Below, in pieces: positions 22,361 to 29,309 of a stretch of DNA of 64,000 nt. The DNA comes from Armatimonadota bacterium (GTDB lineage Bacteria; Sysuimicrobiota; Sysuimicrobiia; Sysuimicrobiales; Sysuimicrobiaceae): the NCBI GenBank assembly GCA_025060455.1, contig JANXBY010000066.1:1-64000 (forward strand), written 5' to 3'. The notes under the pieces were generated by a model that saw nothing but the letters and a program-made list of their open reading frames with translations, did no database searches and was not told where the DNA came from. Both the position numbers and the translations under genes were made by a program. Each line of letters opens with the position of its first letter. Position 1 is the stretch's first letter.

Positions 22361-22687
22361 GTGGAAGCCGACACCCGTGTCTACCGTGTGGGCACCGCCC
22401 CGGTGCTCCGTGTAGTGCGGGGGCCGGGGGAGGGGAAGGCGGTGGTGCTGGGGGACGGTGGGGTGACCATCGGCCGCGGGCACGCCTGCGACCTCGTCCT
22501 GCCAGACCCCTTGGTGTCCCGAGTGCACGCGCGGGTAGAGCGTGGCCCCCGCGGTACCGAAGTGGTGGACCTGGGCTCCACCAACGGGACGTACGTGAAC
22601 GGACGGCGGGTGACCCGCTGCCGGCTGGAACACGGGGACCGGCTCCAGCTGGGCGCGGTGGTGCTGGAGTACCGCGAGGTGCCGTGA
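22361..22687 (+). CDS. FHA-domain protein (intact pThr-binding motif)
   Basis: VTIGRGHACDLVLPDPLVSRVHARVERG...DLGSTNGTYVNGRRV. Confidence 0.9.
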   Translation: MEADTRVYRVGTAPVLRVVRGPGEGKAVVLGDGGVTIGRGHACDLVLPDPLVSRVHARVERGPRGTEVVDLGSTNGTYVNGRRVTRCRLEHGDRLQLGAVVLEYREVP

Positions 22688-23136
22688 ACGAGGCCCTGCA
22701 GGCGCTGCGCTACGCGGTGCTGGCGGCGCTGCTGCTCTTCGTGTACCGGGCGGTGCGCGCGGTCCTGGACGATGTGCGCACCGCGGAGGCCGAAGCACCC
22801 TGGGCGGTGCTCGTGGTGGAGGAGGGTCCGGGGCTGAGCGCGGGCGAAGCGTTCGCGGTGCGCGGCCTAACGGTGGTGGGGCGCGCGGAGGCCAACCAGG
22901 TGGTGGTCCCAGACCCTGAAGTCGCGCTTCAGCACGCCCGGCTGGTGGCCCGGGGTGACAGCTTATGGCTGGAGGACCTGGGCTGTCCCGCGGGCACCTA
23001 CCTGAACGGCCGCCGGCTGGAAGCCCCGGCCCCGGTCCGGCACGGAGACCGCGTGCGCGTGGGCTCGACGGTACTGCGGGTGGTGCAACCCGCACGTCCG
23101 CGAGAACGCCGCGGCGGACGAACGGGTCGTGACTAG
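22684..23136 (+). CDS. Membrane-anchored FHA-like protein with degenerate pThr-binding motif
   Basis: N-terminal TM AVLAALLLFVYRAVRAV; VVGRAEANQVVVPDPEVALQHARLV...EDLGCPAGTYLNGRRL. Confidence 0.85.
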   Translation: MNEALQALRYAVLAALLLFVYRAVRAVLDDVRTAEAEAPWAVLVVEEGPGLSAGEAFAVRGLTVVGRAEANQVVVPDPEVALQHARLVARGDSLWLEDLGCPAGTYLNGRRLEAPAPVRHGDRVRVGSTVLRVVQPARPRERRGGRTGRD

Positions 23137-24364
23137 GCTGCTGTTTGGCAGGTCGGCCCGAGACCCTGTGCCCCTCCTGCGTGCGGACAGCTGGCGGCGG
23201 AGCCTGCGGCTGTACGCGCCGGTGTTCGCGGTGGGAGTGGGAGGGTCGGCGCTGGTGCACTGGAACCGGACTCCCGACGACCCCCCGTGGGCAGTCCTGT
23301 ACGTGGCCGCGGTGCTGCTGGGCTTCCTCGTGGCCCACCGCGTGCTGGACGGTGAAGACCCGATCCTACTGCCCACCACCGCTCTGTTGGTGGCCGTAGG
23401 GCTGGTGATGGTGTTCCGCCTGCAGCCCCACGGGTTGGCCTACCACGCCGCGTGGACGTGCGCGGGGCTTGGGGGGCTTGTGGCTGCTTGCCGGGTCCCA
23501 TCCTGCTTCCGGTGGCCCCAGGCGGCCACGGCGGCCGCGCTGCTCCTGGGCTCCGTGGCGCCTTGGGCGTGGCAGGCGCTACCGGGCGGGTGGCAGCTCG
23601 CCGCAGGGGACCTGGTAACGCAGCTGGGGTCCGAGGTGGCCAAGGTGTGCGTGGTGGTCTGGGCAGCTTCGGAGCTCAAGCACGGACGGATCCGGGGCCC
23701 AGCTGTAGCGGTGTGGGCGACGGCGGTAGCTCTGTGGCTGGTGCGGGGCCAGGTGGCCACCGCGGCGGTGCTGGTGTGGGTGGGCCTGGCGGTGGCGTAC
23801 TGCGCGGGCCCGCCGGTGCGGGCGCTTGCCCTCGTGGCCGGCGGGTTTGTCGTGCTGGCGGGGCTGGTGCACGCCAGCTTCCCTCACCTGGTGGATCGGG
23901 TGGCGGGGTGGGCCAACCCATGGGCCGACCCCATGGGCGCGGGCTACCCCTTGGTCCAGAGCCTGTTCGCGGTCGCTGCGGGCGGGCTAGTGGGTTCCGG
24001 GCCAGGCGCAGGCTACCCCGAGCTGGTCCCGGAGGCCCACACGAGCCAGACGCTGGCCGCGGTGGCGGAGGAGTGGGGGTTTGTGGGCGTGGTGGGGCTG
24101 GTGTGCGCATACGCCGTGTGGGTGGGAAGGATGCTGCGCCTAGCGGTCCGGGCTCGCCGGATCTGGTCGCGGTGGGCAGCGGTGGGGGCTGCTTCCCTAG
24201 TGGCTGGCCAGGTGTTCCTGTCCGGCGCTGGGTGTACGGGCCTCCTGCCGCACACCGAGGCCGCTCTCCCGTTCGTGAGCACAGTCGGTGTGTCCGTGGC
24301 CGGCTACCTGATCCTGCTGGGCGTGGTAGTCGGGAGCGGACAGGTGGAGGAGGGGGGCGGGTGA
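23129..24364 (+). CDS. SEDS-family (RodA/FtsW-type) protein, apparently lacking the catalytic Asp
   Basis: Multi-TM; WANPWADPMGAGYPLVQSLFAVAAGGLVGSGPGAGYPELVPEAHTSQTLAAVAEEWGFVG. Confidence 0.88.
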   Translation: MTRLLFGRSARDPVPLLRADSWRRSLRLYAPVFAVGVGGSALVHWNRTPDDPPWAVLYVAAVLLGFLVAHRVLDGEDPILLPTTALLVAVGLVMVFRLQPHGLAYHAAWTCAGLGGLVAACRVPSCFRWPQAATAAALLLGSVAPWAWQALPGGWQLAAGDLVTQLGSEVAKVCVVVWAASELKHGRIRGPAVAVWATAVALWLVRGQVATAAVLVWVGLAVAYCAGPPVRALALVAGGFVVLAGLVHASFPHLVDRVAGWANPWADPMGAGYPLVQSLFAVAAGGLVGSGPGAGYPELVPEAHTSQTLAAVAEEWGFVGVVGLVCAYAVWVGRMLRLAVRARRIWSRWAAVGAASLVAGQVFLSGAGCTGLLPHTEAALPFVSTVGVSVAGYLILLGVVVGSGQVEEGGG

Positions 24365-25662
24365 GCCGACGGGTTGTCCACCTGGCCCGTACGTACCTGA
24401 CCCTCCTGGCCCTTCTGGCGGTGTGGGCGGGCTACTGGCAAGTGGTGCGGGATCCGGACCTGGCACGGCACCCGGCCAACCCACGGCTGGTCCTCGCGGA
24501 GGAGCGAATCCACCGCGGCCGCATCCTGGATCGCCACCTGGGCGTGCTCGCGGAGACCGTCCGCCGCGGTAGCCGCACCGTGCGGACCTACCCGGAGGGA
24601 GAGGTGTTCGCCCACCCGGTAGGGTACCGCAGCCTTTTGCTGGGCAAGGCGGGCCTGGAGGCGGGGGTGGACGCCCACCTGTTGGGAGTGGGCCAGCTCG
24701 GGCCGTGGCAGGGCTTGCGCGTGCGGGGGGACAGGCCGCGCAGGGGCTTCGACGTCGTGACGACGCTGGATCGCGAGGTGCAGCGGGCCGCCTGGTCCGC
24801 GCTGGGCGCACGGGCGGGCGCGGTGGTGGTGATGGAGGTCGGAGGGGCGATCCTGGCTTCCGCCAGCCGCCCCAGCTACAACCCCAACCGCCTCGAGGAG
24901 ACCTGGGCCGAGCTGCGGTGGTCGACCGGCTCGCCCCTCTTGGACCGTGCTACAAACGGCCTCTACCCCCCCGGACGCCCGTTCGGCGTGGTGGTGCTGA
25001 GTGCGGCGCTCAGCCGCGGGCTGATCACCCTGGACAGCCCCTTGGACTGCCCGGGCTCTCAACGCGGCCGCCTTGCCAGGGAGATCCTGGCGGGAGCTTG
25101 CGACCACGCCCTCGCGAGCCTCGGCCGCCTCCTCGGCGGCCGGGTTCTGTGGGAGACCGCGCGGGCGTTCGGTTTCGGGAAAGCCCCCACATCCGAGTTG
25201 CCGGTCGCAGACGGCGAGCTGCCGGAGCCTGAGGCTGACCCGGCACAGCTGGACCGCGTCAGCTCCGGGAGAGGGGGGGTGCTGGCCTCGCCCCTGCAGA
25301 TGGCTGCAGCGGCTGCCACCGTGGGCCGCGGAGGGGAGCGCGTGCAGCCGTACTTCGTGCTCGCGTTGCGGGACGAAGCCGGCGCGGTGGCTAAAAGACC
25401 CGCCCCGCCTGCGGCCCGGATCCTGGCCCCCGAGGTGGCGGCCGCGGTGCAGGAAGCTCTGCGGGCGTCTGGAACCCCACAGGTGGCGGCCGTGGCGGAC
25501 ACGGTGCGCGCCGGCGGCCTGCCCGTGGGTTGGTTTGTGGGCCTGGCACCCGCGCGGAGGCCCAAGGTGGTCGTGGCGGTGGTGGTGGAGGGGGAGGGCG
25601 AGGAGGTAGCCGCGGTGATGGCCCAGAAGGTGCTGCCGGTGGCCCTGCGCGTGATACCGTAG
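24361..25662 (+). CDS. PBP2/PbpA-type penicillin-binding protein homologue lacking SxxK/SxN/KTG
   Basis: N-terminal TM, RGRILDRHLGVLAET, YPPGRPFGVVVLSAAL, PLQMAAAAATVGRGG, GWFVGLAPA. Confidence 0.85.
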   Translation: MSRRVVHLARTYLTLLALLAVWAGYWQVVRDPDLARHPANPRLVLAEERIHRGRILDRHLGVLAETVRRGSRTVRTYPEGEVFAHPVGYRSLLLGKAGLEAGVDAHLLGVGQLGPWQGLRVRGDRPRRGFDVVTTLDREVQRAAWSALGARAGAVVVMEVGGAILASASRPSYNPNRLEETWAELRWSTGSPLLDRATNGLYPPGRPFGVVVLSAALSRGLITLDSPLDCPGSQRGRLAREILAGACDHALASLGRLLGGRVLWETARAFGFGKAPTSELPVADGELPEPEADPAQLDRVSSGRGGVLASPLQMAAAAATVGRGGERVQPYFVLALRDEAGAVAKRPAPPAARILAPEVAAAVQEALRASGTPQVAAVADTVRAGGLPVGWFVGLAPARRPKVVVAVVVEGEGEEVAAVMAQKVLPVALRVIP

Positions 25663-25684: not shown

Positions 25685-27601
25685 GTGGCGGTGGCTTCCG
25701 GATCGGTGCTGGCAGGGCGGTACGAGCTGGTGGAGACCATCGGCCAGGGCGGAATGGCCGTGGTGTACCGGGCCCGCCGGCTTTCCGACGGCAAGGTGGT
25801 GGCGGTGAAGGTACTGCGGGAGCCGTACCGCCACGACCGGGAGTTCGTGGAGCGGTTCGAGCGGGAGGCACAGGCCGCCGCCTCCCTGGCGCACCCCAAC
25901 GTGGTGGCGGTGCTAGACAGCGGAGAGGATGGCGGGGTGCGGTTCCTCGTGATGGAGTACGTGGAGGGAGAAGACCTCAAGACGCTGTTGCGGAAGTCAG
26001 GCCCGCTCCCTCCCGCCCGGGCCGCGGCGGTGGCCGCCGCGGTGTGTGACGCCCTGGAGTATGCCCACGCCCGGGGGATCGTCCACCGGGACATAAAGCC
26101 CCAGAACATCCTGCTGACCCCCACCGGCCAGGTGAAGGTCACAGACTTTGGCATCGCGCGGGCCCTCAGCTCGGCCACCATCACGGAGACGGGCACGGTG
26201 CTGGGCTCGGTCCACTACCTGGCTCCGGAGCAGGCAAAGGGGGAGCCGGCCACCGCCGCCTCCGACGTGTACGCCCTGGGCGTGGTGCTGTACGAGATGC
26301 TCACCGGCCGGCTGCCCTTCGACGGCGAGTCGCCCATTGCGGTGGTGCTCAAGCACCTGTACGAGGAGCCTCCGCCGGTGCGCCAGGTGAACCCCGCGGC
26401 GCCGGAGTGGCTGGAGGCCGTCGTGCACCGGGCGCTGGCGAAACGCCCCGAGGAGCGGTACCCGTCCGTGGCCCACATGCGCGCGGACCTCGAGGGCCGC
26501 GCCGAGTACTGGCGGCACGGCCCGACGGTGGTGTTGCCGCAGCCCGTGCCGCGGCGCCGGTGGCGGGCGCCGTCGGCGGCGGTGGTGGCCGCGGTGCTGC
26601 TGGTGGCGTTGGCCTCCGGCATGGTGGCGGCGTGGCGGGCCCTGCAGGCGTACGTCAACGTAGGGGAGGTGACCGTGCCGGACTTTCGAGGCCAGCCGTT
26701 CACCCAGGCTCAGGCGGCGGCCGCGGGGCTCCGGTTGCAACTGGTGGTGGCGGGCCGGCAGTACCACGACCGCTACCCGCCGGACGCGGTGGTGGACCAG
26801 GACCCGCCTCCGGGGCAGAAGGTGAGGGAAGGCCGGTGGGTGTCCGTGGTGCTCAGCCAGGGTGCCCAACGCGTGCTCGTTCCGGACGTGACCCGCAGGC
26901 CCCTGTCGGAGGTCACCCTCCTGCTGGAGCAGAACCGGCTGCGGGTGGGCACAGTGAAAGAAGACTTCGACGACGAGGTACCCCGCGGCGCCGTGGTCTC
27001 GCAGGAACCCGCGCCGGGTACGCAGGTGGCCCGGGGCACCCCGGTGCACCTGGTGGTGAGCAAGGGCCCGGAGCTGGTGACCGTACCGGGGCTGGTGGGC
27101 CTGAGCCTGGCGCAGGCCCGGGAGGTACTGCACCGCGTGGGGTTGAGCCTGGACCGGGTGGGCTACGTGGCGCGGGCGGACCTGCCCGAGGGAGTGGTGG
27201 TAGAGCAGTCCCCACCGGCGGGAACTCAGGTGCGCCGCACGCAAAAGCTCGGGCTGGTAGTGGCGGTGCGGCCTCAAACGCCACCCAGCCCTCCCGCCTG
27301 GGCGACCCCGTGGCCCGGCCCACAACCCGCCGCACCCCCTGCGCTGCCCTCTCCGCCGGCGGTCCAGGCCACCACGGAGCCCACAGGTGGCGCGGTGCGG
27401 CGCGTCCGACTGGATGTGACCTTGCCGCCCGGGGAGCCGGGGGAAGTCCGGATCGTGGTGATCGACAACCGGGGCGTGCGGGTGGTGTACCGCCAGGTGC
27501 ACGACCCGGGCGAGCGCGTGGTGCAGACGGTGGACGTCGAAGGGTACGCCATCGTGCAGGTTTACTTCGGCGGCCGGTTCATCCAGGAGGTGCGGCCGTG
27601 A
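25685..27601 (+). CDS. pknB: Ser/Thr protein kinase with TM segment and three PASTA repeats (PknB/PrkC-type)
   Basis: VAVKVL, HRDIKPQNILL, DFGIA, APEQ; PASTA repeats beginning VPDFRGQPF, VPDVTRRPL, VPGLVGLSL. Confidence 0.95.
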   Translation: MAVASGSVLAGRYELVETIGQGGMAVVYRARRLSDGKVVAVKVLREPYRHDREFVERFEREAQAAASLAHPNVVAVLDSGEDGGVRFLVMEYVEGEDLKTLLRKSGPLPPARAAAVAAAVCDALEYAHARGIVHRDIKPQNILLTPTGQVKVTDFGIARALSSATITETGTVLGSVHYLAPEQAKGEPATAASDVYALGVVLYEMLTGRLPFDGESPIAVVLKHLYEEPPPVRQVNPAAPEWLEAVVHRALAKRPEERYPSVAHMRADLEGRAEYWRHGPTVVLPQPVPRRRWRAPSAAVVAAVLLVALASGMVAAWRALQAYVNVGEVTVPDFRGQPFTQAQAAAAGLRLQLVVAGRQYHDRYPPDAVVDQDPPPGQKVREGRWVSVVLSQGAQRVLVPDVTRRPLSEVTLLLEQNRLRVGTVKEDFDDEVPRGAVVSQEPAPGTQVARGTPVHLVVSKGPELVTVPGLVGLSLAQAREVLHRVGLSLDRVGYVARADLPEGVVVEQSPPAGTQVRRTQKLGLVVAVRPQTPPSPPAWATPWPGPQPAAPPALPSPPAVQATTEPTGGAVRRVRLDVTLPPGEPGEVRIVVIDNRGVRVVYRQVHDPGERVVQTVDVEGYAIVQVYFGGRFIQEVRP

Positions 27602-28272
27602 TCCGGCTGGCGCCGTCGTTGCTGTCCGCGGACTTCGCGCGGCTCGGGGAGCAGGTGGCGGAGGCGGAACGGGCGGGCGCAGACTGGATCCACGTGGACG
27701 TGATGGACGGCCGTTTCGTCCCGAACCTCACCGTGGGACCGCTGGTGGTGGAGGCCCTCCGTCGGTGCACGCGGTTACCCCTGGACGTGCACCTCATGGT
27801 GGAGGACCCGGACGGGCTGCTGCCGGCGTTCCGCGCCGCGGGCGCGGACCGGATTTCCGTGCACGTGGAGGCGTGCCGGCACCTGCACCGGACACTGGCC
27901 CGGATCCGGGAGCTGGGGGCGGCCCCGGGGGTGGCCTTGAACCCGCACACGCCGCCGGAGGCGGTGGAGTGGGTGCTGGAGGAGGTGGACACCGTGGTGG
28001 TGATGACCGTGGACCCTGGCTTTGGAGGCCAGCAATTCCTGCCGTCGATGGTGCGCAAGGTGGAGCAGCTGGCGCACCTGCGGCGGGAGCGCGGCCTGGA
28101 CTTCGAGCTGCAGGTGGACGGGGGCATCGACGCGGGCAACGCCGCGCAGGTGGTGCAGGCGGGGGCCACGGTCCTGGTGGCCGGACACTTCGTGTACCGT
28201 CACCCTGACGGCGTGGCCGCGGCGCTGCGGGCTCTGCGGGAGAGCTTGGGTCCGAGGGCGGCCCGCGCGTGA
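27598..28272 (+). CDS. rpe: Ribulose-phosphate 3-epimerase
   Basis: LAPSLLSADFARLGEQV, HVDVMDGRFVPNLTVGP, VMTVDPGFGGQQF. Confidence 0.96.
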   Translation: MIRLAPSLLSADFARLGEQVAEAERAGADWIHVDVMDGRFVPNLTVGPLVVEALRRCTRLPLDVHLMVEDPDGLLPAFRAAGADRISVHVEACRHLHRTLARIRELGAAPGVALNPHTPPEAVEWVLEEVDTVVVMTVDPGFGGQQFLPSMVRKVEQLAHLRRERGLDFELQVDGGIDAGNAAQVVQAGATVLVAGHFVYRHPDGVAAALRALRESLGPRAARA

Positions 28273-29309
28273 GCTGCCTGGTCCTCTACCACCCGGACTG
28301 CCTGCGGCACGTTCCACCCCGTCCGCACCCGGAGAAGCCCGAGCGGCTTGTGGCGGTGAGGGAGAGGCTGGAGCGGGGGGAGCTGTGGGATCAGGTGCCC
28401 AGAGAGGAGCCTGCGCCCGCGGAGCCAGAGCTGCTGGAGCTGGTGCACCCTCGCACCTACCTCGACCAGGTCCGCCGCGCGAGCCGCGACCCGGGTATGT
28501 GGCTGGACCCCGACACGTACGCGGTGGAGGGCACCTGGGCCGCGGTGCTGGCAGCCGCAGGGGGTGCCACCCATGCCGTGGACGCGGTGGTGCGGGGGCA
28601 GACTCCGTGTGCGTTTGCCCTCGTGAGGCCACCCGGGCACCACGCGGGACCCGCCAGGGCCATGGGGTTCTGCTTGGTCAACCACGTGGCGGTGGCGGTG
28701 CGCCACGCACGGGAGCGCCTGGGCTTGAAGCGGGTCATGGTGGTGGACTGGGACGTACACCACGGCAACGGCACCCAGGAGGTGTTCTACCGGGACGGTG
28801 GGGTGTTGTTCGCCTCCCTCCACCAGGAGGGGTGGTACCCGGGCACGGGTGCGCTGGAGGAGACCGGCGAAGGAGACGGGGAAGGGCTGACGGTGAACCT
28901 ACCGCTCCCGCCCGGTGTGGGGGACGAGGGGTACCGGACGGTCTTCGAAGAGGTGCTCCTGCCCCTGGGGGACGCGTGGCACCCGGAGCTGGTGGTGGTG
29001 TCCGCGGGGTTCGACGCACACCACACGGATCCCCTGGGCCGAATGCAGCTGACCGAGGCAGGGTTTGCCCGGCTGGCGCTTCTGCTCCGGGAGGCCGCGG
29101 GGCGCTGGTGCGGCGGGCGCTTGGCGCTGGTGCTGGAGGGGGGATACGACCTCCAGGGGCTCCCGCGGTGCGTGGAGGCCACCCTGCAGGTCCTCGCGGG
29201 CCTCGCCGGGCCTCCGTCGGTGGCCGCGCAGCCCGAGGTGCCCTACGCGGTGGTGCGGGAGCGTGTGCGGGCCGCCCGGCGGGTGTTGGGCCAGTACTGG
29301 TCGCTGTAG
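28269..29309 (+). CDS. Histone deacetylase-family / AcuC-like amidohydrolase
   Basis: HPEKPERL, RPPGHHA, DWDVHHGNGTQEVFY, SAGFDAHHTDPLG. Confidence 0.93.
   Translation: MSCLVLYHPDCLRHVPPRPHPEKPERLVAVRERLERGELWDQVPREEPAPAEPELLELVHPRTYLDQVRRASRDPGMWLDPDTYAVEGTWAAVLAAAGGATHAVDAVVRGQTPCAFALVRPPGHHAGPARAMGFCLVNHVAVAVRHARERLGLKRVMVVDWDVHHGNGTQEVFYRDGGVLFASLHQEGWYPGTGALEETGEGDGEGLTVNLPLPPGVGDEGYRTVFEEVLLPLGDAWHPELVVVSAGFDAHHTDPLGRMQLTEAGFARLALLLREAAGRWCGGRLALVLEGGYDLQGLPRCVEATLQVLAGLAGPPSVAAQPEVPYAVVRERVRAARRVLGQYWSL

Follow-up and report, generated by a model that had tools for sequence, protein, structure and literature searches.

We analyzed a window of 64,000 nucleotides from an Armatimonadota bacterium, which forms part of a 103,781-base contig in a 2.26 Mb draft genome that is 95% complete. 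The window carries the parts of a pknB-type operon in order, with genes for an FHA protein, an FtsW/RodA-family (SEDS) protein, a class B penicillin-binding protein (bPBP) and a PASTA Ser/Thr kinase, and lacks the PP2C phosphatase gene; the SEDS stop codon overlaps the PBP start codon (GTGA). Actinobacterial operons of this kind run fhaA–fhaB–pstP–rodA–pbpA–pknB, and we take the window order FhaB–SEDS–PbpA–PknB to be the same arrangement and the operon to be of the same type as the M. tuberculosis pbpA operon. The features are as follows.

22361..22687, + strand: FhaA remnant consisting of the FHA domain, whose core residues are intact; start codon provisional
22684..23136, + strand: FhaB-like TM and FHA protein, lacking two phosphothreonine contacts, the Ser of SxxH and the Asn of SxNG
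23129..24364, + strand: predicted pseudo-SEDS glycosyltransferase (FtsW/RodA family), cognate partner of the PBP
24044..24046, + strand: AGC, encoding Ser306 at the catalytic Asp position of the SEDS protein
24361..25662, + strand: predicted pseudo-PbpA, a class B PBP homolog with TM helix, pedestal and transpeptidase fold, without catalytic motifs
24976..24987, + strand: RPFG, residues 206–209, at the catalytic SxxK site and the start of the active-site helix (codons CGC CCG TTC GGC)
25096..25104, + strand: ACD, residues 246–248, at the SxN site (codons GCT TGC GAC)
25492..25533, + strand: residues 378–391 (VADTVRAG/GLPVGW) around a 9-residue in-frame KTG(T) deletion, placed by alignment
25685..27601, + strand: PASTA Ser/Thr kinase of PknB type with intact catalytic motifs

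A histone-deacetylase-like gene, assigned by reading its sequence, lies at 28269–29309 and is syntenic on the 3′ side of the pknB operon in 15 of 15 genomes compared.

Motif loss in the PBP and its SEDS partner

The open reading frame at 24361–25662 (+) is intact and encodes a 433-residue protein whose translation contains YPPGRPFG, ILAGACDHAL and VADTVRAGGLPVGWFVGLAP, with Pfam matches to Transpeptidase (88.9 bits) and PBP_dimer_2, the PbpA dimerisation domain (30.5 bits). A sequence-only reading had described it as a PBP2-type protein with all three transpeptidase motifs erased from a preserved fold. Codon-level alignment with orthologs bears out the loss of SxxK (Ser to Arg, Lys to Gly), the RPFG codons falling exactly under the ortholog STFK codons, and likewise the replacement of SCN within AGACD, where the ACD codons sit under SCN. 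The third motif is also gone, but the KTGT segment is missing through a nine-codon in-frame gap, so that deletion describes the change better than the replacement of GKTGT by VRAGG that had been claimed. The reading had named another SxxK in the active-site helix as the finding that would count against it; none exists anywhere in the 433-residue protein, and the claim stands. The sole SxN, SYN at residue 172, lies in a different element, and the protein has five lysines in total. Of the 74 distinct PBP rows without a gap at the SxxK site, 70 carry the motif, the four exceptions being the window gene and its counterparts in three congeners, and each of the genome's three remaining PBPs is intact (SVFK/SCN/KTGS, STLK/SCN/KTGT and SAFK/SRN/KTGT). 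With no nucleophilic Ser, Lys general base or KTG strand, the window PBP is predicted to escape acylation by β-lactams, as follows from established serine-PBP chemistry. PBP_dimer_2 and the best structural matches refine the PBP2-type label and make the protein PbpA-type. We rejected its identification as the cell's own PBP2, since the RodA-partner PBP2 (contig 42) and a dcw-type FtsI are separate and intact. The active PBP2 proteins of two congeners, G001 and G003 (L090 and L094), read VEPGSVFK and those of relatives YEPGSVFK.

An AlphaFold2 model of the PBP built on 16 orthologs (pLDDT 87.8, pTM 0.84) keeps the PbpA fold, with a helix at 206–218 that starts at RPFG and a tight hairpin that joins strands 376–384 and 387–396 at the site of the KTG deletion. 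Foldseek returns an Atopobium PBP and M. tuberculosis PbpA as the best Protein Data Bank matches (E about 1e-32, TM about 0.78), and Pfam, the model and Foldseek together place a TM anchor, a PBP_dimer_2 pedestal and a transpeptidase domain fold in the protein. Orthologs, phylogeny, model and structural search thus agree with the earlier claim that the fold outlasted its motifs.

The transpeptidase motifs are absent at the locus in all four genomes of the genus that were compared, the window genome (G000) and its congeners G001, G002 and G003. The SxxK site reads RPFG in G000, G001 and G003 and ITFR in G002, the SCN site reads xCD in all four, and none has an active-site KTG. At the same operon position, S[TSA]FK, SCN and KTGT are kept in 11/11 relatives of the order (three from the sister family, eight from elsewhere in the order). 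The four PBPs of the genus form a clade with 100/100 support inside the PbpA clade, separate from PBP2 and FtsI, and tree and synteny together back orthology of the window PBP to the active PbpA of these relatives. Other genomes of the order yield only PBP2- and FtsI-type matches and most lack this pair; in 18 genomes of other groups we likewise found no clear PbpA ortholog, only matches of PBP2 or FtsI type as judged by frame length and rank. Among the genomes compared, the motif loss is lineage-specific. An annotation or assembly artefact, in which the protein would be mistranslated or chimeric, has a negligible chance of accounting for it: the genomes are fragmented draft assemblies, but the same state recurs in three independent congeners at 54–65% identity, which refutes both assembly error and chance, and shared codon-level changes, in-frame deletions and low dN/dS argue the same way.

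The sequence-only reading covered the PBP and did not report the losses in the SEDS partner and FhaB or the continued selection described below. The window SEDS protein scores 137.5 bits against the FTSW_RODA_SPOVE profile and its congeners 133–174, compared with 225–278 for active orthologs. At the catalytic Asp position, matched by alignment to D255 of T. thermophilus RodA and equivalent to the catalytic D297 of E. coli FtsW (PMC8765783), the window protein has Ser and G001 and G003 have Gly, while G002 keeps Asp. The ECL2 GARxW motif is lost in 4/4 genus genomes, and the catalytic Asp, ECL3 QRDLG and ECL5 TG..YGG are changed in 3/4; G002 keeps HTD and the ECL3–ECL5 motifs and lacks the ECL2 GARxW and SExxK residues. 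Substitution at several of these positions abolishes function in E. coli FtsW, as judged by failure to complement (PMC8765783). The FtsW and RodA paralogs are intact in the same genomes. Structural modeling of the SEDS protein is weaker (pLDDT 75.8, pTM 0.80; one of five models good), with FtsW and RodA as the best Foldseek matches. On the residues present, both halves of the pair are almost certainly catalytically dead in the window species, and by parsimony the transpeptidase was lost before the glycosyltransferase. In genome G026, SEDS and PBP occupy one 1098-aa open frame with no stop between them (L044 9350–11977, −), an apparent natural fusion that supports the two as cognate partners.

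Losses extend to the neighboring genes. FhaB lacks the SxxH Ser and SxNG Asn in 4/4 genomes of the genus and keeps the GR and His of the FHA core, whereas sister genera keep both contact residues; FhaA in the genus consists of the FHA domain only, without the N-terminal domain of the sister-genera protein. A PP2C gene occupies the fhaB/SEDS junction in g3 and f7 (L042 7317–8333; equivalent to window position ~23130) and is absent in g1, g2 and G026, and the sister protein as query found no PP2C match in the window genome. We rejected PP2C loss as a genus-specific trait because it is shared by genus g2 and G026; the operon PASTA kinase is thus without its usual cognate phosphatase beside it in all three. 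The catalytic residues of PknB are intact, to judge from its Lys, HRD and DFG motifs and a 582-bit match to NCBIfam PknB_PASTA_kin.

Selection after the loss

Both the PBP and SEDS open reading frames are intact in 4/4 genomes of the genus. We treated this as weak evidence and rejected an open frame alone as proof of selection, since simulated neutral drift at the observed third-position GC leaves the frame open in about 13–20% of runs at 0.2–0.45 changes per site, and used dN/dS (NG86) instead. Because G000, G001 and G003 all carry RPFG, their divergence postdates the loss under parsimony. Between G000 and G001/G003, dN/dS is 0.30 for the PBP (CI 0.22–0.38) and 0.44–0.48 for the SEDS protein (CI 0.34–0.63), and between G001 and G003 the values are 0.29 and 0.25. 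Neutral simulation of the same sequences gives a mean of 1.1–1.3 and a minimum of 0.71, and working genes in the same comparisons give 0.14 for PBP2, 0.19–0.21 for FtsI, 0.23–0.26 for RodA and 0.17–0.18 for PknB. The excess over intact paralogs indicates relaxed constraint; the pair is held less tightly than its working paralogs, yet it is clearly under purifying selection.

The distribution of constraint within the two proteins is uneven. Between G000 and G001/G003, SEDS ECL2, which forms the catalytic cavity, has a pN/pS of 1.15 (CI 0.82–1.64), where active groups have 0.42 and 0.31, and ECL4, which in E. coli FtsW is the region at the interface with the FtsI pedestal (PMC8765783), has 0.32 against 0.23 and 0.21. 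The most conserved 30-residue segment of the PBP lies in the pedestal (72–101, 86%); next comes the helix that once carried SxxK (191–220, 81%). Profile scores of the genus proteins are 30.5–42.6 for PBP_dimer_2, compared with 45.2 in an active ortholog, and 80–104 for Transpeptidase, compared with 220. A pattern of lost ECL2 and kept ECL4 constraint is only suggestive, because ECL2 in the G001–G003 comparison alone is again constrained with a wide interval (0.27, CI 0.08–0.72) and the ECL2 alignment is gappy.

Retention of a non-catalytic pair or its decay

We somewhat favor the reading that a non-catalytic SEDS–bPBP complex has been retained as a scaffold or sensor within the PknB operon. 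Both proteins have lost catalytic residues, yet selection still maintains their intact genes next to that of a wall-sensing kinase, so the pair probably persists in such a role and not as an enzyme. It is the third SEDS–bPBP pair of the cell, encoded in an operon of FhaA–FhaB–(PstP)–RodA–PbpA–PknB type, both of whose enzymes would have turned into pseudoenzymes in this genus. Pseudo-SEDS and pseudo-PBP would still associate, ECL4 of the former meeting the pedestal of the latter, and the complex would make neither glycan nor cross-links. Its role would be that of a scaffold in the membrane, or of a substrate sensor, by which the PASTA kinase is positioned or informed. Wall synthesis would fall to the intact RodA–PBP2, FtsW–FtsI and class A enzymes; the genome keeps two other complete SEDS–bPBP pairs and one class A PBP. 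A bolder version, in which the whole complex has been repurposed as a catalysis-free receptor, perhaps binding lipid II or stem peptide and reporting to or anchoring the PASTA kinase, we regard as tentative and rather unlikely.

The main rival is that a redundant third pair is slowly eroding under relaxed selection, its frames kept open by a continuing need for proper membrane-protein folding, whether to avoid misfolded, toxic protein or to spare pknB polar effects, and by the scarcity of stop codons at high GC. We consider this a real possibility, though a doubtful one. The module does look like it is eroding, with FhaB degenerate, FhaA truncated and PP2C missing, and the raised dN/dS relative to paralogs and the survival of open frames in a fraction of simulated drift runs fit such a course. 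Against a retained role, the pair is missing from most genomes elsewhere in the order although these have PASTA proteins, which makes it dispensable for the kinase, and ECL4 conservation could be purely structural. Against decay stand a dN/dS that, once the shared loss had occurred, is about 0.3 and far under the neutral simulation, both frames open in four of four genomes of the genus, and constraint that is patterned, with ECL4 and pedestal kept and ECL2 lost. We prefer a scaffold or sensor over decay because dead relatives of both proteins can still work: E. coli FtsW retains binding to both FtsI and lipid II in the nine inactive variants examined (PMC8765783), and B. subtilis can divide with PBP2B inactive, the protein then serving a structural role (PMC5656894). 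Residual glycosyltransferase activity, with the transpeptidase alone dead and the dead PBP activating glycan polymerization by the pair, appears very improbable. The HTD and ECL3–ECL5 motifs of the G002 SEDS protein speak for it, and one lineage may be at that stage, but G002 too lacks the ECL2 GARxW and SExxK residues, the window species has Ser for Asp and four altered cavity regions, and substitutions at matching FtsW positions fail to complement (PMC8765783). Retention as a scaffold or sensor thus remains our preferred account of the pair.

Comparison with known SEDS–bPBP systems

Three genomes that have lost the catalytic residues of both proteins, a congener (G002) without transpeptidase motifs and with the SEDS Asp, and intact sister genera constitute a natural experiment in which the order of loss, the persistence of interface residues and any signaling role beside PknB become directly testable; were the pair only decaying, it would still provide a phylogenetically ordered example of a redundant wall-synthesis module being dismantled. 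SEDS–bPBP pairs are regarded as enzymes, and work on separating their structural role from catalysis has used dead mutants made by engineering. We found no report in the open-access literature of a pseudoenzyme, paired or not, that arose naturally among SEDS proteins or class B PBPs.

The window PBP shares domain architecture and fold with M. tuberculosis PbpA (3UN7/3UPN) and the Atopobium and Eggerthella PbpA-type PBPs (4QJG, 4MNR), with a profile match to PbpA-type PBPs at E 3.6e-110; those proteins are acylated by β-lactams in crystals, whereas the window PBP is without the Ser, Lys, SxN and KTG. The window SEDS protein has the fold and ECL4 region of T. thermophilus RodA (6BAR) and P. aeruginosa FtsW (8BH1) and differs from both in lacking the catalytic Asp and cavity motifs. 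Gene order and families match the actinobacterial fhaA–fhaB–pstP–rodA–pbpA–pknB operon, in contrast to which the window has no PP2C, an FhaA reduced to its FHA domain, and FhaB, SEDS and PBP proteins without their working residues. The B. subtilis PBP2B catalytic mutant resembles the window PBP as a dead class B PBP that is structural in a wall-synthesis complex (PMC5656894), but it is laboratory-made and its SEDS partner is no pseudoenzyme, whereas the window pair is natural and almost certainly dead in both halves. In E. coli FtsW, D297A and further dominant-negative variants have lost the catalytic Asp or cavity residues (PMC8765783), as has the window SEDS protein; those variants are engineered and toxic when overexpressed, whereas the loss in the window is natural and lies in a dedicated extra pair.
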